This document shows positions 1,936-19,500 of a DNA stretch of 21,489 nucleotides, in pieces (position 1 is the first letter of the stretch; each line of letters opens with the position of its first letter). The translations under genes were made by a program, and so were the position numbers. The DNA lies in the IMG/VR virus record IMGVR_UViG_3300024062_000080, positions 1-21,489 of that record; one strand, 5' to 3'. The notes below the pieces were generated by a model. It saw only the letters and a program-made list of their open reading frames with translations, was not told the origin of the DNA and did not search any database. The stretch is from a virus.

Positions 1936-2329
1936 AATCCAGCTCTCTAATCTTTTGCTTATACCTTTCGATTGCTTCTTCATAATCAGCTCTTGTTAAT
2001 TTTACTACTATATGCATTCTACTTTCTAACTCATCGACTGTACCCTTACCCCATTTATTTTCTACTCCTCTTGCTGCTTTTATTTGGTTTCCGTTCAGAA
2101 AAGTATTACAATAACTACACTGGCTATTAACGTTACGCTCATCGTATCGAATGCTAAGGTATCGTCTGCTGAATAGATGCCCAGCGTGAGTACTACCTCC
2201 AAAAGCTGGATATTCTTTACCACAACTAATACACTTGCAATTACCTTTATAATCGCTATCACGCTTTCTAATGTACTCGCTAAATACTTTGTCTAGCTTT
2301 TTCTTTAGTTTACTTATTGTCGTTGGCAT
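1934..2329 (-). CDS. ninG: NinG family recombination protein
   Basis: A NinG/Rap-type protein of 131 residues. In lambda this family promotes phage recombination and Rap acts as a Holliday-junction (branched DNA) endonuclease. The N-terminal basic helix (KLKKKLDKVFSEYIRKRDSD) is followed by a zinc-finger-like set C31, C33-x2-C36, H51 and C71-x2-C74. The family signature AGHLFSRRYLSIRYDERNVN then QCSYCNTFLNGN is clear. Lambda NinG is longer, so this is a compact version. It starts at TAATG with the Mom-like gene, placing recombination and DNA modification in one translationally coupled pair. A 14-bp palindrome overlaps its stop. Confidence 0.9.
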   Translation of the reverse strand: MPTTISKLKKKLDKVFSEYIRKRDSDYKGNCKCISCGKEYPAFGGSTHAGHLFSRRYLSIRYDERNVNSQCSYCNTFLNGNQIKAARGVENKWGKGTVDELESRMHIVVKLTRADYEEAIERYKQKIRELD

Positions 2330-3006
2330 TAGAATAGTTCTGTTTGTATTGTTGTTTTATAATCTGCATTGTATTTTTTATTTTGTCCTTTAGGATAAGA
2401 TTTTATTTCGAACAATTTTTCTTTCATCATATTTTTTTTATCTTTTTTATTTGCCACTACATAAACATACCTATTTTTAGCTGGTCTTTCAACTTGATAT
2501 AATTTATCTCCATATTTTTCTTTAAGTTTTTTTATTCTATCTTTTTGATATGGAAACTCATCCATTAATGTTCTACTATGTATATGTTCTTTACCTTTTA
2601 ATTTCCAATCTTTTTGTGTGTGACTTTTACCAGTATAAATGAAGTTTGTAGCTTGATATACATAACCATTGTGACCAAAATTACAATCTGCATAACTGAC
2701 AATGATAATAGGCTTAGGTAATAACTTAAAAGATTGACTAATAAAATATGAGTTAGCATTTTTACTTAAATTATCATTAGTACATAATCTATTTAATTCA
2801 TAAACAAAATTCATATATTTTTCTCCAAATAAAGACTTTTTCATAGTTAAAGGTATAGCATTTCCATAAGTTAAAATGCCAACTAATATATTTTTATCAT
2901 ATAGACCAAATGAATATGTAAAACTTGTCATTCTTTTTAAATAATGTTTTTTTAATAACCATTCTTTACATAGTTCTGATTTAATTGATTTTACTTTATA
3001 ATTCAC
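2329..3006 (-). CDS. Mom-like DNA modification protein (GNAT-type)
   Basis: A 225-residue protein resembling the Mom family, known from phage Mu, where Mom adds a methylcarbamoyl group to adenine in DNA and protects it from host restriction. The supporting pattern is KKHYLKR near residue 20, SFGLYDKNILVGILTYGNA at 32-50, YELNRLC at 69-75, a Ser/Phe-rich segment, then SYADCNFGHNGYVYQATNF and IYTGKS. Order and spacing fit the family's GNAT-like fold. The C-terminal 60 residues are Lys-rich. GTG at 3006 is the start, because the next Met (residue 26) would remove the conserved first segment. Base composition is visibly lower in GC than in neighbours, suggesting separate acquisition. Other GNAT transferases remain possible. 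Confidence 0.65.
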   Translation of the reverse strand: MNYKVKSIKSELCKEWLLKKHYLKRMTSFTYSFGLYDKNILVGILTYGNAIPLTMKKSLFGEKYMNFVYELNRLCTNDNLSKNANSYFISQSFKLLPKPIIIVSYADCNFGHNGYVYQATNFIYTGKSHTQKDWKLKGKEHIHSRTLMDEFPYQKDRIKKLKEKYGDKLYQVERPAKNRYVYVVANKKDKKNMMKEKLFEIKSYPKGQNKKYNADYKTTIQTELF

Positions 3007-9455: not shown

Positions 9456-11600
9456 TTACCAAGGTTCAAATTCGTTAGCATCTGGAATATTTGATATAAT
9501 ACCAGTAACTAAACTTAATGTATTACCACTTAAATTAATTCCATACCATTCTCCAGACCAAGTATCTTCATTAGCATTATAACTTACTTGATAAGGTATA
9601 AAAGCTGTTCCATCTATTTCTATTCCTTCGAAATAATTTAACTCTCCACTAGTTAGCTTCAAACTTCCGTCAAATACTCTTGAACCACTAGCTTGACCTT
9701 TCATAACCTCCTCAACTAGAAGCTGAGTAATTTCTTTACCAGTACCAGTATTGTATGCTTTCCAAGTTTGATTAGTACCATCTTCCCAAGATGTAGTAGT
9801 GTAATTATAAGTCTCAATTCTACCTACAGCTCCACTTGTTGGACCAGTTCCAATAAACAATTCTGGTATTTCAAACTTTACACCGTTAGTTATTGTAGAA
9901 CCTCCTACTTGATTGAAGGCTCTAAAGAACTTTTTTATTGATACATTATCATCTACTGTGTAAATTATACCAAGCTCTTGAGAAGTTTCTGGAGGAGAAT
10001 ATATCAATATATCAAAAGGGTCTATCGTTGTTGTTGATTCAGTTATTTCTGTTGTTGAATTATTATCATCAAATACATTAGCAAAATTGTTATAAGATGG
10101 TCTAGCAAATACCTCTAAAAATAATTCTCCATCTACTGGAATTTCAGTAGTCTGACAATATAAGTTTACTGTATTTTGATTTTGATTTGGCTGTTGTAGG
10201 TTAGCATATCCAAAAGCTCTAGATAATGTAAAAATATCAGATGTTATCCAATCTTGGTCAACAAAGTTAGAAAGTAAAAAGTAATAAGTTTGTGAACTAC
10301 CAACCAATTTGAATCTAGCAAAAATTCTAGTATGTATAAATTCATTAGTACCACTAACATCTGTAAAGTTCATTCCACTAACTAAAGGATATATCTGAAA
10401 ATTTCTATTAAATAAAATACCACTTCCAGTAACACTTGTTATATTACCAAGAGATATTACTAATTTGTCATCATCTGCATTATTGATAGAATATGGCTCA
10501 GTTGCGCCAGAAGCATTAGAAACTAAAACATTGCTTATTTTATATCCATTCCATATAGGAATCTCATTTGAAGTAGCTTGAAATTGTGAGCTTGTAGCAC
10601 TATCAACATTATTTTGATAATAAAAGAAAGGCATATCAAATGGACTTAGATGATTGTATTGAGTTTCAACACTTCTAAATATAGGTAAGAAATCAAACGA
10701 GCCTCCATATCTTTTTATATTAGTTCCCTCTGATGTTGTATAACTTGTACTTCCATAAGCAGCTATGGTAGTGCCACTATTTTTGTAATACTTTCTAAAG
10801 TAATGTGTGTTTGGTGCTTTCCAATTATCATAGTTATTCACTTGTATTAAGTGCCATTTGCCATCAGATAAAAAGCATCTCATTCCCCAAGCCTTACAAA
10901 CATTATCTAATAACTCAAAAGAGCTTTTAAATTTTTTTGTGCCAGTCTCTTCGTCTACATCAACATAAGCCATAAAGTTAAACCTACTAGAAACTAATGG
11001 GTCTCTATTAGCTTGGCTAGTCATAGTGTCTGTAGTCCATTCTACAGATGTTATGATATAATCATCAGATACACCCCAATAATAGTCTTTTAAACCTATC
11101 TGATTGTTAAAGATATTTTGAAAGTATGTTAAAGTTTGGAAACTAGAAGGAGTACTATAACCAGTATCTATATTAAAGTCTATATCTCTTAAAGGAGCTA
11201 ATCCACATACAGCAGTTAATTTGATTCTAGTTGGTCTAGAAATATCTTGCTCTGGAGATATATCGTTTAGTAATAAACCAGCCCAATAAAGCTCATAAGT
11301 TACATCATCAGTACTTTTGAATATAGACATATCAAAGCCACCATAAACAGAGCCTCTAATATCATTAACTATAGCTTGTTCTCCCTCTTCTGTTACTAAT
11401 ATATCAAATGTTACCTCACTTGGAATTAAACCAGTAAAACGATTGTCATTGTCAGTCTGATAGGTTAAAGTAAAACCATCAGCACCTAGCTTAGGAGTAT
11501 AGGTAGTTGATGAAATAGCGTTATTGTTATAAACGTCTATTCTATAGTAAGTGCCATTGTCACTCTGTAAACTTAATTCTAGTTTCTTTTGTCTGCTCAT
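9456..11600 (-). CDS. Large distal tail/baseplate protein
   Basis: A 714-residue protein directly after the tape measure, where siphoviruses encode distal tail and tail-associated hub proteins. The N-terminal 130 residues are beta-rich (KKLELSLQSDNGTYYRIDVY, PSEVTFDILVTEEGEQAIVN) and contain a turn-rich YWAGLLLNDISPEQ, reminiscent of a Dit/hub-type platform. The rest is mostly strand and loop (HYFRKYYKNSGTTIAAYGST), rich in Asn, Thr, Ser and Tyr. No peptidase motif was found. It starts at a TAATG junction with the tape measure. The hub assignment comes from order and size; I do not recognise a specific family. Confidence 0.65.
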   Translation of the reverse strand: MSRQKKLELSLQSDNGTYYRIDVYNNNAISSTTYTPKLGADGFTLTYQTDNDNRFTGLIPSEVTFDILVTEEGEQAIVNDIRGSVYGGFDMSIFKSTDDVTYELYWAGLLLNDISPEQDISRPTRIKLTAVCGLAPLRDIDFNIDTGYSTPSSFQTLTYFQNIFNNQIGLKDYYWGVSDDYIITSVEWTTDTMTSQANRDPLVSSRFNFMAYVDVDEETGTKKFKSSFELLDNVCKAWGMRCFLSDGKWHLIQVNNYDNWKAPNTHYFRKYYKNSGTTIAAYGSTSYTTSEGTNIKRYGGSFDFLPIFRSVETQYNHLSPFDMPFFYYQNNVDSATSSQFQATSNEIPIWNGYKISNVLVSNASGATEPYSINNADDDKLVISLGNITSVTGSGILFNRNFQIYPLVSGMNFTDVSGTNEFIHTRIFARFKLVGSSQTYYFLLSNFVDQDWITSDIFTLSRAFGYANLQQPNQNQNTVNLYCQTTEIPVDGELFLEVFARPSYNNFANVFDDNNSTTEITESTTTIDPFDILIYSPPETSQELGIIYTVDDNVSIKKFFRAFNQVGGSTITNGVKFEIPELFIGTGPTSGAVGRIETYNYTTTSWEDGTNQTWKAYNTGTGKEITQLLVEEVMKGQASGSRVFDGSLKLTSGELNYFEGIEIDGTAFIPYQVSYNANEDTWSGEWYGINLSGNTLSLVTGIISNIPDANEFEPW

Positions 11601-13420
11601 TAGTAACCTCTTGTTCTATTTCTATTTGCTTGTGCTCTATCTGAACTTAGTAATATATCAGCTCCACTTATTACACCAAAGACTTCTGTTGTACCTCCAG
11701 TATTTATCATTGACCTAGCTCCTACACCACTTAATAAGTCTGGAGTTTCTCCTACAACAGACCTTCCAAAAACGTCTCCTATACCACCAAATCCTCCTAT
11801 ATCTTTCAATCCCATTAATGCGCCCATACCTGTACCTCCTAGCAAAGCATTGAATATAGCTGTTACTAATAAAAGACTAAGCATTTCATTTACAGCTCTT
11901 TTGATTCCGTCTATAAGGCTAACAAAAAAGCCATCTGTACTCTGTAAAGCAGTTACAAAAGCTCCTTGAATACTAGAGCCAAATTGTCCAAAGATAGAGT
12001 TCATTTCTTGTACTGCTAAATCAATACCAGAAACACTTTCCTCAAATTCTTCTACTATTGGTTGTAGTGTTGCAAAATCATTTTTTACCTCTTTTAATGC
12101 GACTGATGTTACCTTTATAGATTCAGCAAATTGTAATTGACTTGCTTCTAGTTTATCAATACCCATTTGTCTTTGACGTTCTGCTTCCTCTGGAGATACT
12201 TGTTTTTTAGGTACAATCTTTGTTCCTTTAAAAGCTGCTGTTCTTCTTCTTAGTTCTTCAATAGTAAATACTTGACCAGATTGGTCTTGTATTGAAAAAT
12301 CTAAAGCTATATCTTCTTCCTTTTTAAGTAGTCCTAGTTTTTCTAATAGACCTTCAATAGATGTTTTAACATTGTCAAAAACAGTAGTTAAATCATTCCA
12401 ATAAGTATAAATACCTTGAGCAGCTAATATTACACCAGCTATTATCTTACCTTGTGGAGTTAAGGCTACTAAAGCCTTCCCTATATTTATTAAAGCTGGT
12501 AATAAACTACCTAAGAAAAATAGTCTCAACTTAGAAAATGCTGTAATCATTTTACCAGCTACGGTTATTATTGGTCCTAATACTGCTGCAAATCCAGCTA
12601 CTTTTAAAGCTGCTGTTCTTTGTTCACTAGAGAATCTATTGGTAAACTTAGCTAAGTCTCTAAGTCCACTAACCAAGTCTTTAGCTAAAGGTAAAATCTC
12701 AACTCCTAGTTGTACTGCTACATCCTCTAACTCTGCTTTTAGTATTCTTAATTGATTAGCAAATCCATCAGAAGTCCTTGCAAAGTCTCCAACAGCGTTT
12801 TGACTTTGTTGTAATGCTAGTTGATAAGTTAAAGTAGCTTTCTCTACTCGTCCTAATTCTTTAAATACCAAACCTTGTTCAGCAGCAAAGGACTTTAAAT
12901 CTGCTTCTGTTATTGCTATTCCTAATTGCTTAATAGATTCTCTTTCTCCTAATAGTGCCTTAGTCAAAGCCTTACTAGCTGCTTCAGCTCCTCCTTCTAC
13001 ATTAGTGAAAGATGCTAAATCTACTGCTAGTTTATTTACCTCTTTAGATAGCTTTAATGCTTCTTCTTGTGTAAATCCAAAACCAGTTAATAAATCTCCA
13101 GTATCAGAAAGTAATTGCATCGAAGCCCTAGAACTTAATCCAAAGCTATCAGATAACTCTTTTGATGCTGCTTGAGCATTGTCAGATATATCTTTAAATA
13201 CAGTATTAAATTTAGATTGGGTTTCTTCAAAGTCAGACGCTAACTTAACAGCAGCAGCACCAAGACCTACAACTGGAAGCGTAATGTTTCTAGTCATAGT
13301 ATCTCCAAAGCCTTGCATTTTTTTACCAAATCTTTGAATAGACCTAGTAGACTTTCTTAAAGCACTTTGAAACTGCTTATCGTTTAAGGATAATTTGACG
13401 CTTAATGTTTTCTCAGCCAT
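11600..13420 (-). CDS. Tail tape measure protein
   Basis: A 606-residue tape measure protein, which sets tail length and is ejected into the host. The N-terminus (LSLNDKQFQSALRKSTRSIQ, RFGKKMQGFGDTMTRNITLP) is the TP901/minor-tail-type start, followed by PVVGLGAAAVKLASDFEETQ. A long helical region continues to about residue 260, then hydrophobic segments at about 270-345 (GPIITVAGKMITAFSKL, GKIIAGVILAAQGIYTYW) and 500-550 (MLSLLLVTAIFNALLGGTGM). It is short for the class; at about 0.15 nm per residue the tail would be near 90 nm. It overlaps the chaperone T segment by 8 nt, the order expected after a G/GT pair. Confidence 0.92.
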   Translation of the reverse strand: MAEKTLSVKLSLNDKQFQSALRKSTRSIQRFGKKMQGFGDTMTRNITLPVVGLGAAAVKLASDFEETQSKFNTVFKDISDNAQAASKELSDSFGLSSRASMQLLSDTGDLLTGFGFTQEEALKLSKEVNKLAVDLASFTNVEGGAEAASKALTKALLGERESIKQLGIAITEADLKSFAAEQGLVFKELGRVEKATLTYQLALQQSQNAVGDFARTSDGFANQLRILKAELEDVAVQLGVEILPLAKDLVSGLRDLAKFTNRFSSEQRTAALKVAGFAAVLGPIITVAGKMITAFSKLRLFFLGSLLPALINIGKALVALTPQGKIIAGVILAAQGIYTYWNDLTTVFDNVKTSIEGLLEKLGLLKKEEDIALDFSIQDQSGQVFTIEELRRRTAAFKGTKIVPKKQVSPEEAERQRQMGIDKLEASQLQFAESIKVTSVALKEVKNDFATLQPIVEEFEESVSGIDLAVQEMNSIFGQFGSSIQGAFVTALQSTDGFFVSLIDGIKRAVNEMLSLLLVTAIFNALLGGTGMGALMGLKDIGGFGGIGDVFGRSVVGETPDLLSGVGARSMINTGGTTEVFGVISGADILLSSDRAQANRNRTRGY

Positions 13421-14807: not shown

Positions 14808-15224
14808 CTATCTATTTATGTTAAATCTGTAATCTTGTGCTATACCATACAAACCAATACTACCAGCAGAATCATCGTAAAGCTCGTTCTGGTCTTGGTA
14901 AAATATCTTGTCTACTACTACTCCACTATAAGTGCCACTAACGTAGTCTAGAGCTGTTCTAACGTGACCAGCTAGAGTTACCATATCAGCGTAGCTATTG
15001 TGATATATGCTTATCTGTACTCTAACATAGTCATACTCACTTACTCCGTTCTTAGTGTTGTTAGGCTCATCTCCAAACATCTGATAAGTTATATAAGGTA
15101 ACTTAACGTCTGTAGGGAAATTGTAACGACTAGGAAAGATTCTCAAGTTTCCACTTGTAGTAACTAATGGAGCTACGTTTGAGTCGTTGCTAAGTATGTT
15201 ATATATTACTTTTCCTATCTCCAT
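14808..15224 (-). CDS. Tail terminator/completion protein, DUF3168-like
   Basis: A 138-residue protein fitting the DUF3168 tail-completion family, which caps the tail tube and links it to the neck. The N-terminus GKVIYNILSNDSNVAPLVTT and RIFPSRYNFPTDVKLPYITY contains the typical I-(F/Y)-P-x-x-x-P-x-x-x-x-P-Y-(I/V)-x-Y pattern. A central YDYVRVQISIYHNSYADMVT and a C-terminal strand GLYGIAQDYRFNI complete the alpha/beta fold. It joins the gp10-like gene at TAATG. Order (connector, head closure, gp10-like, this gene, tube) is the standard HK97/SPP1 neck order with two adhesin-like genes inserted earlier. Confidence 0.85.
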   Translation of the reverse strand: MEIGKVIYNILSNDSNVAPLVTTSGNLRIFPSRYNFPTDVKLPYITYQMFGDEPNNTKNGVSEYDYVRVQISIYHNSYADMVTLAGHVRTALDYVSGTYSGVVVDKIFYQDQNELYDDSAGSIGLYGIAQDYRFNINR

Positions 15225-15703
15225 TACTTCATTCTTTTGTCAATGAGTTTTTTTATTTCTCCTATAACACTATTAATAGCTGTATTGCCTTTACTAGCAG
15301 CAGTCTTATCTAACATTCTAAGTCCTGGAATACCTCTAAATCCATACTCTAAGAAATAGAAATAAAATCCAGACTTCTCTTTACTAGCAAATGATTTTTT
15401 AACTCTTGGTCCTATATATACTGTAGGTGGTTTGCCTTTTACGTTCTTACCATTTATAACAGCTAAAGACTTTTTAAGTTGTTTAGATTCAACTGGAACA
15501 ATAGACTTAAGCTCTTGTAGTATAGGCTTGGCAGCTTTACGCATTCCTTGTCTCAATAGTGTTTTGTTTTTACTATCAGACATATTAAGCTTCTCTAAAT
15601 CCTTAATTAAAGACTTCAGCTCTTTCTCATCAATGGTAGCTGTAACAAAACCAGCGTGACCACCTTGATTACCTCTTAATATTTTACTTGTTCCTATTGC
15701 CAT
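15224..15703 (-). CDS. HK97 gp10-like neck/tail-joining protein
   Basis: A 159-residue basic protein of the HK97 gp10-like family involved in joining tail to head. Features are DLEKLNMSDSKNKTLLRQGM, RKAAKPILQELKSIVPVESK and QLKKSLAVIN: the usual helix R-x-A-(A/V)-K-P-(I/V)-x-x-x-x-x-x-x-V-P, then S/K-x-x-L-K-K-S-L. These are followed by a strand (TVYIGPRVKK), the aromatic motif FYFYFLEYGFRGIPG, and a closing helix. The aromatic-E-Y/F-G motif is typical. It is bounded by TAATG junctions on both sides, so its translation is coupled to the small upstream protein and the tail terminator. Confidence 0.85.
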   Translation of the reverse strand: MAIGTSKILRGNQGGHAGFVTATIDEKELKSLIKDLEKLNMSDSKNKTLLRQGMRKAAKPILQELKSIVPVESKQLKKSLAVINGKNVKGKPPTVYIGPRVKKSFASKEKSGFYFYFLEYGFRGIPGLRMLDKTAASKGNTAINSVIGEIKKLIDKRMK

Positions 15704-15912
15704 TATTGCTCTGGAAAAGGGTTAATACCGTTATCTATTAATATATTTATCCAATCTATTTCCTTAGTGTATAAGTCTACATCAGACCACTTAGTCTCTA
15801 AGCATTGATAGGTTTCTAGCACTCCATACGATACTATCGCATCGCTATCGTTCCATACGATGTAGTAACTCTTTACCTCTGGGTAACATATTTCTGTTAA
15901 TCTTAAACTCAT
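15703..15912 (-). CDS. Small protein of unknown function in the neck module
   Basis: The 69-residue product is acidic and rich in Tyr, Trp and Ile, e.g. RLTEICYPEVKSYYIVWNDS, YGVLETYQCLETKWSDVDLY and a C-terminal helix ending NPFPEQ. No motif is recognised. TGATG joins it to the LamG-type adhesin before it and TAATG joins it to the gp10-like gene after it. Its position suggests a partner, chaperone or small subunit of the neck or adhesin. The two Cys residues (9 and 37) have no zinc-site pattern. Confidence 0.6.
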   Translation of the reverse strand: MSLRLTEICYPEVKSYYIVWNDSDAIVSYGVLETYQCLETKWSDVDLYTKEIDWINILIDNGINPFPEQ

Positions 15913-17468
15913 CAGCCAGTTAAATTATTTAGTTCTGCATCACTTAAAGCCTCATTAAATACTGCTAGTGCTTTGACTTTACCATAGAAATCATTATCTG
16001 TAATAGTAGCGTTAGCAAAATTAATTACATTAAGAGTATTAGCTGAAAAAATAGAGCCACTTGTACTAATATCATATTCTACTCCGTTTATCCATAATGC
16101 AAAATCATTAGCTTTATACTTGACTGCAATTTTATTAAAACTTGTTATGTTTTGACCAGACTCAAAAAAAGTATATTGAGTTACGTTATTAACATTAATA
16201 AAACCACTTATTATATTTCCTGCAACACTTAAAGTTATTCTATTTGTTAAACTTCCATCACTTATTGTAATTCTTTTACTTGCGCTTTCTTCCGCTAAAG
16301 CAGCTATCTCTGCATATAGCACACCCTCTGTTGAGTTTATTAATGTAGCACTACCAGCACCAGTTGCAGTCTCTGTAGCTCTTGTAACTGTACTACCTGT
16401 TAGTGTTGGTATGTACGATGTAGCGTAGGATAAGGCTTCTGCTTGACCACCCCATATTTCAATATCTCTTGCTGTTGCACCACTATAAGTATTTATTGAT
16501 ATTAAACTTGATGCTGAACTACTATCGTAAGTTTCTACTCTATCCCAATTACCTGTTAATGTGTGTGTTATTGCTGAACCATTTGACAATCTTATCGTTT
16601 CTCCTAGTGTACCTTTAACATAAAAACTAGCTGTTAAACCACTTGATGTAGATATATAAAGACTATCATCTGCATTCATTTGCATTCTTGTAGAGTTTTG
16701 TGTGCCATCAGGAGATATACCATAATTAGAAGTTAAAGTAACTGATGCTTCTTTACTCCATTGAGTAAAATCCTCACTATAAGTAATAAGATTAGTAGAA
16801 GTAGGCTCTAACAATATATGACCATTATCTCCATTACTATCATAGTTTATTCGTGGTATGTTGTTGGTGTCTATTATTTCTTTGACTGATACGTTGTCTA
16901 TTTTTATACTAGAATTTGTACTTGAATTTTGAAATAAAAATAATTGATTGCTCGTGTTTTTGATGTAAATAGTATAACTACCTATCTCTACACTTGGTGC
17001 TGATATGAATATTCCAGAACTTGAATAATATTTAAAATTCGTAACTCCATTATTTTCTATTATATCATATTTAAGCTCATAAGTTTTATTAGTTGTCAAA
17101 ATATTATTTGAAGATACTCCGTTAGTAGCATATGCTCTTGAATCTGATTCAGAAGCAGAATTAGACATTGTTAGACTACCATTTTCTATAATTACATTTG
17201 ATGTATTAGAATACCAGCCCAAAGTAAAACTAGATGTGTTAGGAGTTCCAGATGTGCTAAAGTCTCCATTAGTAACTAACTCACTACCAAGAGTACGTCC
17301 TACCATCTCGACTAAGCCACTAGAATTAACTCGACTAGCAACACTAGCTCTAGCAAAGTCAAAGTCCTCATAAGGCTCTACTACTGGTGCTACGTTGTAA
17401 AGCGTACCAGCCTTGTAACCAGTAGGAGTTAAGATAATACTTGCTTTATTTAATAGTCCGTCTGCCAT
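15912..17468 (-). CDS. LamG/CBM-like adhesin in the neck module
   Basis: A 518-residue virion-associated adhesin candidate. Residues 1-60 form a distinctive N-terminal part with DFDFARASVASRVNSSGLVE. Residues 61-196 look like a carbohydrate-binding jelly roll: SELVTNGDFST at the start, strand-rich centre, IKIDNVSVKEI at the end. Residues 219-345 are a second such domain (LLEPTSTNLITYSEDFTQWS). Residues 378-518 resemble a LamG/concanavalin-type domain (STEGVLYAEIAALAEES, FALWINGVEYD, FYGKVKALAVFNEALSDAEL). Such domains bind polysaccharides or glycoproteins. It joins the BspA-type gene at TAATG, so both probably decorate the head-tail neck or capsid. No enzymatic residues are assigned. Confidence 0.75.
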   Translation of the reverse strand: MADGLLNKASIILTPTGYKAGTLYNVAPVVEPYEDFDFARASVASRVNSSGLVEMVGRTLGSELVTNGDFSTSGTPNTSSFTLGWYSNTSNVIIENGSLTMSNSASESDSRAYATNGVSSNNILTTNKTYELKYDIIENNGVTNFKYYSSSGIFISAPSVEIGSYTIYIKNTSNQLFLFQNSSTNSSIKIDNVSVKEIIDTNNIPRINYDSNGDNGHILLEPTSTNLITYSEDFTQWSKEASVTLTSNYGISPDGTQNSTRMQMNADDSLYISTSSGLTASFYVKGTLGETIRLSNGSAITHTLTGNWDRVETYDSSSASSLISINTYSGATARDIEIWGGQAEALSYATSYIPTLTGSTVTRATETATGAGSATLINSTEGVLYAEIAALAEESASKRITISDGSLTNRITLSVAGNIISGFINVNNVTQYTFFESGQNITSFNKIAVKYKANDFALWINGVEYDISTSGSIFSANTLNVINFANATITDNDFYGKVKALAVFNEALSDAELNNLTG

Positions 17469-18874
17469 TAGCTTATATCGTTTAGTTCTTGTAAAAATGC
17501 TTGGCTGTCTGTAGTGTTCTCTACTACTCCTCCAGCAGCTACTACTCTAGTTGTTAGTATGCTTATGTAATCGGCTGGTGTTGGGTTAAAGATACCACCA
17601 TCAACAATAGTCCAACCATCGTCCTCTATTAAGCTAAATCGTGCAGCATAAGCTGACTCTGTAAATTGTGAGCCTCCGAAGTTTATACTAATATCGTTAT
17701 CGTGTCCTCCAGCTTGCCAAGCTATTAGCGTTGCATCGTAGTTAGAAGTAGATAAACCAGTAGCGTTCTGCATAAAGTTAGTAAAGTCAGTGACGTTACC
17801 TATAGACCACGCTGCTAGAGATTGGTCGAATAGGTCGCAGTTGTAGAGCATTGCACTCATATTTTCTACGTTAGTAGTGTCCCAACTATATATATCTCCA
17901 TTAAATTGTGAGCAGTTGTAAAATGCAGCAAACATATTATTAACATTAGAAGTGTCCCACGAGTTTAAATCTTGGTCAATAGTGTTACAATTATAAAACA
18001 TATAACTGATATTAGTTACATTACTAACATTCCAATTTTTTAAAGGCTGATTGAATGTAGAACAAACATAAAAGCATTGGTCTATTCTTGTTACTGTACT
18101 TATATCCCAATTACCAATAGCTCCATTAAAGTTAGTGCAATCTCTAAACATTTGATAAAAAGAAGTAGTAGAAATAGTTGGAGCATCTGTAGCACTAGCA
18201 TCTAAATTAGTACAACCATAAAAAGCAGCGTTAGTAGATAAGTCTAAGACTCCCCATTGTTTTACGTCAAGCATTTTAAGCCTATCTCCAGCGTTATTAA
18301 ATTGCCATCCTTGTAATGTTCCCTCTATGCTTACTTCGTATTGTCCAGCACTACTATAGGTGTGTGTAACCTCTTGCTGATTGTAACTTGTTATTGTATC
18401 GCTAGAGCCATCTCCCCAATTTACCGTAGCGTTATAACTACCACCACTAACCAATGGCATCATAAACTGAGTATTTAAACTAGAGCCACTAGATGTATTC
18501 TCTGTGTCAATAGTAAAGACAAATTGATTAGGAGCCGTTTGTGATAAGTCTACTACGTCATTCTTCTCTAATAAAAGAACCATAGCATCTTTACGACCTA
18601 TTTCTTTTATGCTCTTGATAGAATAATTAGTAGAGCCATTAGAGATAAAGTATTGTGGACTTACTCCAATGTTTGTTCTGTATCTTATTAAGCACTCTAT
18701 ACGCTCGTCATTGATTAAGGCATCAGCATCGAAGTTAGTGTTGCCACCTTTGAAGTCAAAGTCTGCGTAGATGGTAACGTAACTATTATCAGATACTTCT
18801 CTCTCGCCATAAGCGTTAGTCGAGTAAGTCTGTGTGTATAGTTTTAACTTTCTATCTAGTTTGCCTATTATCAT
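17468..18874 (-). CDS. Head-closure (gp16/joining-type) protein fused to PKD-like and BspA-like domains
   Basis: A 468-residue mosaic. Residues 1-105 are a head-tail joining protein of the SPP1 gp16 type: KLDRKLKLYTQTYSTNAYGE, TIYADFDFKGG, DERIECLIRYRTNI and a closing strand. That family normally ends near here. Residues 117-186 form a PKD-like beta domain (VNWGDGSSDT, VTHTYSSAGQYEVSIEG). Residues 218-370 are BspA-like (DUF285) repeats with Cys at 221, 246, 271, 296, 321 and 346, exactly 25 apart, and repeating W-(D/N)-x-S-x-V. Residues 430-468 are a short C-terminal module. The joining domain should anchor the protein in the neck and display the repeats. It overlaps the connector gene by ATGA and joins the adhesin at TAATG. 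Confidence 0.85.
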   Translation of the reverse strand: MIIGKLDRKLKLYTQTYSTNAYGEREVSDNSYVTIYADFDFKGGNTNFDADALINDERIECLIRYRTNIGVSPQYFISNGSTNYSIKSIKEIGRKDAMVLLLEKNDVVDLSQTAPNQFVFTIDTENTSSGSSLNTQFMMPLVSGGSYNATVNWGDGSSDTITSYNQQEVTHTYSSAGQYEVSIEGTLQGWQFNNAGDRLKMLDVKQWGVLDLSTNAAFYGCTNLDASATDAPTISTTSFYQMFRDCTNFNGAIGNWDISTVTRIDQCFYVCSTFNQPLKNWNVSNVTNISYMFYNCNTIDQDLNSWDTSNVNNMFAAFYNCSQFNGDIYSWDTTNVENMSAMLYNCDLFDQSLAAWSIGNVTDFTNFMQNATGLSTSNYDATLIAWQAGGHDNDISINFGGSQFTESAYAARFSLIEDDGWTIVDGGIFNPTPADYISILTTRVVAAGGVVENTTDSQAFLQELNDIS

Positions 18875-19500
18875 AGTTCAAGCAATCGGTAAGGAGTTAA
18901 TAAGTGGTCTACCATAAGTGGTAATTCATTTACTTGAGTTCCCATAACAACATCTTGTCGGTTCTCATAATATCGACCAACGATGATATAAATAGCTTGT
19001 ACTATTGGAGCTGGTACGTCACTAGCTGTAGCACCTACTATAAACTCAACCTCTACAGCGTTAGGTCTTTCGTAAGTGTTTGGAAAGTCTCCATTCTCCG
19101 ATTCATATATCCTTCCTGGTCTGACCTTAGTATCAACATCGTAATTAGATGCTGCTAAGGTTTGTAATGTATTGTCGGCATCGTAATACTTAATGTGAGT
19201 AACACTAGCAACATCTCCTACTTGTAAATCAATGTAAGAAGGAAACTCATCGTAAAATATATTATACGTCTGAGTCATTAATCTACGTCTAGTGAACTCT
19301 TCTACAACTTGCGTAGCAACATTAATCAAAGACGTAATATAAGTATTGTCATCGTCATAGTCTGAGTCTATTCTTAAAAATGCTTTAGCCTCTGATAATG
19401 ATATTACCGTAGACGTTGGAGCAGTCTTTAGAACTAACTTACCATAAGGCACATAGTCAGAGCCTCTTAATGTGTTAAAGTTGTAGTTATAGTATTCCAT
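18871..19500 (-). CDS. gp6-like head-tail connector protein
   Basis: A 209-residue connector of the HK97 gp6-like/DNA-packaging family that binds below the portal. Typical segments are TVISLSEAKAFLRIDSDYDD (the start of the family domain), NTYITSLINVATQVVEEFTR, RRLMTQTYNIFYDEFP and PAPIVQAIYIIVGRYYENRQ at the C-terminus. The central 80 residues carry a beta insert (TLQTLAASNYDVDTKVRPGR) as in larger family members. It follows the major capsid gene across a terminator, so lower expression than capsid is expected, matching its copy number of about 12 per virion. The next gene overlaps by ATGA. Confidence 0.88.
   Translation of the reverse strand: MEYYNYNFNTLRGSDYVPYGKLVLKTAPTSTVISLSEAKAFLRIDSDYDDDNTYITSLINVATQVVEEFTRRRLMTQTYNIFYDEFPSYIDLQVGDVASVTHIKYYDADNTLQTLAASNYDVDTKVRPGRIYESENGDFPNTYERPNAVEVEFIVGATASDVPAPIVQAIYIIVGRYYENRQDVVMGTQVNELPLMVDHLLTPYRLLEL

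Follow-up and report, generated by a model that had tools for sequence, protein, structure and literature searches.

A phage head-closure protein with a predicted leucine-rich-repeat arm as a candidate neck adhesin

Known head-closure proteins (stoppers) of the Phage_HCP family have about 110 residues in total, whereas an open reading frame (ORF) of 468 amino acids (aa) in the viral record IMGVR_UViG_3300024062_000080 begins as such a stopper and continues, in a single frame, into a PKD-like domain and an arm of BspA/DUF285 repeats. The ORF lies on the minus strand at 17468-18874 of the stretch analyzed here, which is 21,489 nucleotides long and is referred to as the window; the plus strand at 17468-18874 has many stops. 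The locus raises the question of what a stopper would do with such an arm. An earlier note, made from the letters of this DNA, had suggested that the arms form an adhesive appendage of the phage neck. Comparison of sequences somewhat favors a version of this idea, in which the gene product is a stopper with a C-terminal adhesin arm that serves as an accessory neck adhesin with a changeable binding face.

Architecture of the fusion and its relatives

The head-closure (Hc1) domain, which would be the anchor of the protein, comprises residues 1-111 (18542..18874, minus strand, as for every other window feature given below). It matches Pfam Phage_HCP (PF05521) over residues 1-96 with 26.6 bits (curated cut-off 25), which places it among the stoppers by sequence, and the N terminus matches PHROG 25 ('head closure Hc1') with E 7.5e-6. 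The PKD-like domain follows in residues 112-190 (18305..18541), where Pfam PKD matches residues 133-185 with 24.5 bits (cut-off 23.5), and it is near constant in close relatives. Residues 191-427 (17594..18304) form the predicted BspA/DUF285 leucine-rich-repeat (LRR) solenoid and its C-terminal cap, with a Pfam DUF285 match over residues 215-321 (177 bits, cut-off 25; E 1.4e-52). Within the solenoid are five 25-residue repeat units with periodic hypervariable positions (residues 238-362, 17789..18163). The protein ends in a C-terminal module of 41 aa, here called Ct (residues 428-468, 17471..17593), which is found only where a gene for a LamG-type protein follows. A secreted or surface-anchored bacterial protein would look different, since the N terminus is a stopper and the gene lies inside a phage neck operon.

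A first structure model was set aside because its stopper part was unusable, and a more diverse alignment was used for this reason. The resulting model, built from 57 rows picked from the fetched loci and including the window's own row (alignment A5), has a mean pLDDT of 81.8, with block means of 32-72 in the stopper part. Residues 2-109 of the model match 9lbn_J with Z 10.6 and a root-mean-square deviation (rmsd) of 3.0 over 103 residues, SPP1 gp16 (7z4w_1) with Z 9.4, and both the gene transfer agent (GTA) chain 6tba_3A and the Pam3 neck chain 8hdr_A with Z 8.6. A stopper beta-barrel is predicted for residues 2-109, where pLDDT is low and where Foldseek on the PDB puts stoppers in the top three rows at E 0.049 and worse. 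For the C-terminal part, TpLRR (6mlx), an LRR solenoid, ranks first with Z 13.3 and rmsd 4.0 over 206 residues. Among predicted viral structures, PKD, BspA and 26-residue-repeat proteins were in the top rows. The stopper alignment found nothing among solved structures, and the whole alignment found only two weak Amoebiasin-1-type chains there, within the PKD part. Pfam, PHROG and the model agree with the earlier note that stopper, PKD and BspA arm occupy one ORF, and its gp16-type joining protein at the N terminus is borne out by Phage_HCP and by the fold matches. As read from sequence, a single chain carries a stopper, a PKD spacer and a BspA LRR solenoid whose hypervariable positions recur periodically.

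Among 95 candidate stretches, 91 relatives were found and 80 loci were kept. The earlier note had proposed looking for the same fusion in other phages, and the whole fusion is present in one frame in 57 of the 80 loci. The other 23 comprise one with a different, unfused protein (L080), two uncut loci (L050 and L054) and 20 that are cut by contig ends or gaps. Residue 427 is the natural end of the proteins of L050 and L054 and also the last residue in the contig-cut locus L071. One of the 80 loci, the contig-cut L074, has a stop near residue 207 of the arm, by the contig edge, where error and natural loss are indistinguishable.

In INPHARED, the window's stopper gave no match (E up to 0.1), and the stopper of locus L135 gave one distant match, a 'head-tail adaptor' of Paracoccus phage Pthi1. 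With the whole protein as query, 116 records were matched, in no case across more than 80% of its length, and the fusion was not seen among the 60 of these matches listed, all of which align from residue 94 onward. Ordinary stoppers are short. In the class of Maribacter halichondriae (L298), 7 of 395 genomes gave 8 stopper matches (one below the cut-off), and in that of L330, a metagenome-assembled genome (MAG) titled Gammaproteobacteria, 4 of 274 genomes gave 6 matches (one with an internal stop); in both classes the frames were 86-159 aa long.

Linkage of the arm with its companion genes

The gene order around the fusion is that of a siphophage: prohead protease, capsid, the head-tail adaptor gene Ad1, the fusion gene, the LamG-type gene, a small gene called s69, the neck gene Ne1, tail terminator, tail tube, tape measure and two tail-tip genes, the last named by position. 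The fusion gene stands where a stopper gene is expected, after Ad1 and before Ne1 and the tail genes, with the cassette genes in between. The gene content of the interval that runs from stopper to Ne1 was recorded by blastp with an E limit of 1e-3, the references being the genes of the window and of a few relatives, and each distinct sequence was counted once. This census gave 119 distinct loci, of which 29 end before Ne1 (27 fused, one unfused and one truncated) and were set aside; the remaining 90 are complete. Fifty-two of the complete loci have the fusion, and 38 have a stand-alone stopper of 112-119 aa.

Only three combinations occur among the complete loci: the fusion with Ct, the LamG-type gene and s69 (36 loci), the fusion with s69 but without Ct and the LamG-type gene (16 loci), and the stand-alone stopper with neither the LamG-type gene nor s69 (38 loci). 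The s69 gene, which encodes 65-80 aa across loci, is present in all 52 fused loci and in none of the 38 unfused ones, and Ct and the LamG-type gene occur together in 36 of 36 loci and in 0 of the 54 others. In gene content, the arm and s69 are present or absent jointly between the stopper and Ne1, the same is true of Ct and the LamG-type gene, and relatives with nothing but the stopper have an unchanged gene order. All complete fused loci keep the frame intact, and none of the 90 loci has the repeat domain as a separate gene: it is fused to the stopper or missing. Homologues in which it is always a gene of its own, an outcome that the earlier note had named as fatal to its idea, did not turn up. 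Eight loci cut at the 5' end, which stand outside the census, agree with it: seven have Ct, the LamG-type gene and s69, and L071 has s69 without Ct or the LamG-type gene.

Searches of 25 whole records gave the same picture. All 15 fused records contain DUF285 and none of the 10 unfused ones does; LamG_3 was found in each of the 10 records with Ct, in one of them below the curated cut-off, and in none of the remaining 15. Fourteen of the 25 records were examined for gene order. The tail-tip gene pair is located after the tape measure in all 8 unfused records and in 5 of the 6 fused ones, the sixth stretch stopping short of it. Since the pair is in the same place with or without the fusion, the cassette is an addition rather than a swap of the tail tip.

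A tree of 45 distinct stoppers places 12 of the 15 stand-alone ones on one side with support of 100/99. The other three are on the fused side: L191 (on the contig of L107), whose stopper is 98% identical to the window's, L134 and L135. This distribution suggests arm losses in L191, L134 and L135, on a tree whose root is arbitrary and in which L134 and L135 are on a long branch. In L050, which lacks Ct and the LamG-type gene, the first 112 residues are the same as in ten Ct-bearing rows, and Ct and the LamG-type gene therefore differ jointly on one background.

Repeat variation and the possible roles of the arm

Variation within the protein is concentrated in the repeats. In alignment A1, which consists of 34 rows picked from the 80 loci and whose first 26 rows were used for the counts, invariant positions number 82 of 111 in the stopper, 68 of 79 in the PKD domain and 40 of 125 in the repeats. 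The variability has a period of 25 residues (entropy autocorrelation 0.69; 0 of 20000 permutations as strong). Mean entropy is 1.2-2.5 bits at unit positions 0, 2, 3, 4, 6, 7 and 9, and 0.9 or less at positions 1, 5, 8 and 10-24. Short strands in the first model, at residues 263-265 and 288-290, fall at unit positions 0-2, from which we infer that the variable positions are exposed, on the face formed by the strands and on the loop that follows. At the variable phases Tyr accounts for 11.9% and Arg for 11.7% of residues, but neither ranks in the top twelve at phases 11-24; Ser and Asn are frequent in both sets of phases.

The earlier note had emphasized a ladder of six Cys with exact 25-residue spacing. 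The spacing holds (Cys221, 246, 271, 296, 321 and 346), but the ladder does not define the family, since in alignment A1 neither Cys271 nor Cys296 counts as invariant or nearly so and the clade-B proteins examined are without most of the six.

The ratio of nonsynonymous to synonymous substitution rates (dN/dS) was estimated for 25 clade-A rows (the window's own excluded and L050 left out) and for 13 rows of the separate clade B. In clade A it is 0.73 at the variable phases, as compared with 0.15 at the remaining phases of the repeats; the stopper has 0.09 and the PKD domain 0.08. In clade B, at the phases defined in clade A, the values are 0.33 and 0.14. Among all pairs of the clade-A rows, two are extremes: in L006 and L024 the repeats are 99.7% identical in nucleotide sequence while the stoppers are 84.5% and the caps 79.1% identical, and in L044 and L046 the stoppers are 97.6% and the caps 97.5% identical while the repeats between them are 65.2% identical. 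Repeat alleles have been exchanged between relatives, as judged from these pairs. A diversity-generating retroelement was considered as the source of the variation and set aside, as an RVT_1 reverse transcriptase was found in 0 of 25 records (7.4-26.5 kb, 15 with the fusion), which are possibly fragments.

The combination of a constant anchor and spacer, a variable face, allele exchange and a lectin-like partner points to cell-surface binding that aids adsorption. The stopper domain would assemble as a hexamer under the adaptor ring, by analogy with SPP1, lambda and 80alpha, and six PKD-BspA arms would project from this hexamer to form a collar. The variable LRR face would bind a variable ligand on the host surface, either a glycan or a surface protein, and this binding would raise adsorption before the tail tip engages. 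The s69 protein may help the arm to fold or assemble. Where Ct is present, the LamG-type protein might dock on Ct through its constant N terminus and so provide another binding head, one that changes faster. Adhesive arms arranged as a collar around the neck, in addition to the tail tip, are probably what the phage carries. The adhesive appendage proposed in the earlier note fits with the hypervariability, the exchange of alleles and the linkage to a lectin-like gene, though the linkage extends to s69 as well and the LamG-type gene accompanies 36 of the 52 complete fusions.

A more ambitious proposal is put forward only tentatively. The head-closure ring may carry a host-recognition device of six LRR arms with exchangeable faces, resembling a phage-borne variable LRR receptor, in which two tiers (the arm with s69, then Ct with the LamG head) are gained or lost as units while the tail tip is untouched. 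This ring also retains the DNA, so that in theory the binding of a ligand to the arms might be sensed at the DNA gate as well.

Several points weigh against an adhesin with a selected binding face. The variable phases were chosen by entropy in clade A, and the effect is smaller in clade B. The dN/dS is not clearly greater than 1, reaching 1.03 only at positions picked for variability, and relaxed constraint plus recombination therefore keeps its place as a reading of the repeat variation; in clade A, dS of the repeats is roughly double the stopper value. Variability, exchange and residue bias together do not prove positive selection. The loci are related, so that the linkage counts are not independent events, and an s69-like gene is found at only 3 of 50 unfused PKD-BspA loci (many of them near-copies), which indicates that s69 is no universal partner of the fold. 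Tail-tip proteins vary too, and the neck need not set host range for this reason. The low model confidence in the stopper part, the lack of any match under E 0.001 when Foldseek alone was run on the PDB, and the failure to find a close isolate of these phages count on the same side.

Of the alternatives, one that is unlikely but survives best is that the arm is a structural collar or neck reinforcement which touches the capsid, the tail or the LamG-type protein without binding cells, its repeats varying through relaxed constraint and recombination. The dN/dS values are compatible with such a role, and the collar of phage Milano has been proposed to give robustness (PMC10491603). The variation, however, is periodic and focused on a few positions per 25-residue unit, the stopper and PKD domain are constant, and the arm is dispensed with in 38 of 90 complete loci. 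There is also a small chance that the chain is cleaved or internally started, leaving the stopper free and the PKD-BspA part soluble or on the cell surface, where it could act in superinfection exclusion or otherwise affect the infected host. The repeat domain does occur as a separate gene, only in other, unrelated phages, and these free PKD-BspA genes (e.g., L080, L250 and L205) lend the idea some support. Against it, all 52 complete fusions retain the frame, the one broken frame being that of the contig-cut L074, and no secretion signal was seen ahead of the PKD part, as judged by eye only, without a signal predictor.

Equally improbable is an arm that binds a target other than the host, such as mucus, particles or a polysaccharide matrix. 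BspA and LamG folds are found in many adhesins and the partner gene carries a LamG domain, both of which would suit such a target; the 'algal mucus or particles' of the earlier note found no support here. An assembly chimera or frameshift that joined two genes, the other outcome named in the earlier note as fatal, did not occur and may be dismissed, given that the 57 relatives share the open frame, nearly all on contigs of their own, and that dN/dS is low on both sides of the stopper-arm junction.

If the accessory neck adhesin is real, a conserved siphophage assembly protein also serves as the mount of an adhesin that can change, and recognition extends beyond the tail tip. Natural pairs with and without the arm (e.g., L107 and the window's phage), together with exchanged alleles, make the role of a neck appendage in adsorption directly testable, and the linked set of PKD-BspA, s69, Ct and LamG aids the annotation of phage structural genes.

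Neighboring genes and known neck systems

The genes that flank the fusion are assigned by profile. Ad1, the expected partner ring of the stopper, is at 18871..19500 (Pfam Phage_connect_1; PHROG 442 and 40), and Ne1, an HK97 gp10-like neck gene that forms the right border of the cassette, is at 15224..15703 (Pfam HK97-gp10_like; PHROG 5). Ne1 of relatives is 133-177 aa long and falls into classes of 47-97% identity, though the stoppers are almost identical, which suggests that it has been exchanged in part or whole. The LamG-type protein (518 aa, 15912..17468) has Pfam Laminin_G_3 at residues 395-513, at its C-terminal end, and matches PHROG 5939 (tail protein). Proteins of this type are 326-800 aa long in loci that reach Ne1, with about 50 almost constant residues at the N terminus followed by reshuffled stretches, and Laminin_G_3 was found in 5 of 8 variants scanned.

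The 69-aa s69 gene (15703..15912) is proposed on the basis of the linkage census to be an assembly helper and companion of the PKD-BspA arm. It has no usable match in PHROGs (phrog_21816 at E 0.059; one relative, phrog_9862 at E 0.037; two other relatives, none) and only Chromo_2 at E 0.093 in Pfam. In other phages, s69-like genes stand directly after free PKD-BspA genes in L080 (7680-7901 and 9728-10072), L205 (2131-2385), L235 (1247-1483), L250 (7229-7480) and the L250-like L373-L376. In some phages PKD-BspA and s69 seem to make up an adhesin unit of two genes, and here this unit seems to have been grafted onto the stopper.

Compared with relative G001, the tape measure (11600-13420) and the first tail-tip protein (9456-11600) are strongly divergent, and the capsids are 96% identical. 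A Mom-like protein is encoded at 2329-3006 (Pfam Mom, 132.4 bits), and the window's phage may therefore modify its DNA; among 14 records only L266 (G014) has a match, at 27%. In the search for a host, the first genome scan gave no stopper relative, the first tail-tip protein gave no match and the capsid protein gave 2 matches in 395 genomes. Terminase is missing from the window, and that of G001 is nearest to unrelated phages at approximately 44-45%. The 79 bacterial and archaeal PKD-BspA loci name no host either, being spread over Flavobacteriia, Actinomycetota, Lokiarchaeota and others.

The N-terminal match to PHROG 10356 ('virion structural protein', a profile of 852 positions), over positions 5-108, is better than that to PHROG 25. 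Since these positions match the window's stopper, the profile seems to join a stopper with another domain, which is not DUF285. A separate gene of cyanophage KBS-S-2A, which encodes a 253-aa 'virion structural protein' and lies immediately ahead of Hc1, is matched by positions 370-639 of the profile (L429, 4887-5648; E 2.3e-69). PHROG 10356 may thus be another stopper combination and, if so, surface domains beside or on the stopper arose more than once. A reading of its middle part by eye as concanavalin-A-like was not borne out, Pfam naming no domain there. The profile hit 142 of 395 genomes, in many of which it is the middle (approximately 337-645) that aligns with surface proteins (e.g., L364-L371), and the stopper part is covered only by G116 among the matches listed; calling virion proteins in bacterial genomes by this profile would mislead. 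A feature under match H118, in Pseudanabaena phage Pam2, carries a toxin name that is probably a mislabel.

Residues 1-111 resemble SPP1 gp16, HK97 gp7 and other Phage_HCP stoppers in sequence family, predicted fold and gene position. The earlier note had envisaged a 12-fold collar, but the stoppers of solved phages are hexameric, with six copies reported for SPP1 gp16 (PMC9701221), lambda gpFII (PMC10721106) and the 80alpha HTJP (PMC11661146), so that six arms rather than twelve are expected. The arm shares its LRR solenoid with TpLRR of Treponema pallidum (Z 13.3) and its DUF285 repeats with BspA/DUF285 proteins, all of which are cellular and not virion parts. Lamprey variable lymphocyte receptors (VLRs) also have their variability on an LRR face, and the arm is likened to them in how it would work; VLRA (3m19, Z 10.1 to the model) shares the fold class only, without kinship to the arm.

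The earlier note's view that such an arm would be a new type of neck appendage has to be given up, since cell-binding neck appendages are already known, among them the neck passage structure (NPS) of lactococcal phages and the collars of T4, XM1 and phi29. About two thirds of lactococcal 936 phages (73 of 113; elsewhere 72) carry an NPS, in which the N terminus is constant and the carbohydrate-binding ends are exchangeable; weak binding to host cells was reported for an NPS module (PMC6669499). The NPS of TP901-1 was modeled around the portal/adaptor junction (PMC10747895) and is reported to be non-essential (PMC6669499, PMC10747895). The NPS of 936 and P335 phages resembles the fusion as an optional neck protein with a constant N terminus and exchangeable C termini. 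It is, however, a protein of its own that is anchored by a BppU-like domain and a coiled coil, whereas here the anchor is a stopper in the same chain and the arm is PKD plus LRR. The neighboring LamG-type gene, with its constant N terminus, is built more like an NPS than the fusion is. The T4 wac whiskers, the XM1 gp40 collar spikes and the phi29 pre-neck appendage are likewise separate proteins, none of them described as stopper-fused in the portion of the source consulted (PMC10491603), and no report of a stopper-adhesin fusion was found among the matches listed from the open-licence PMC literature, as far as the excerpts go. Neck-borne binding proteins are thus already known, and what is new here is the covalent anchoring to the stopper together with an LRR arm whose hypervariability is periodic.

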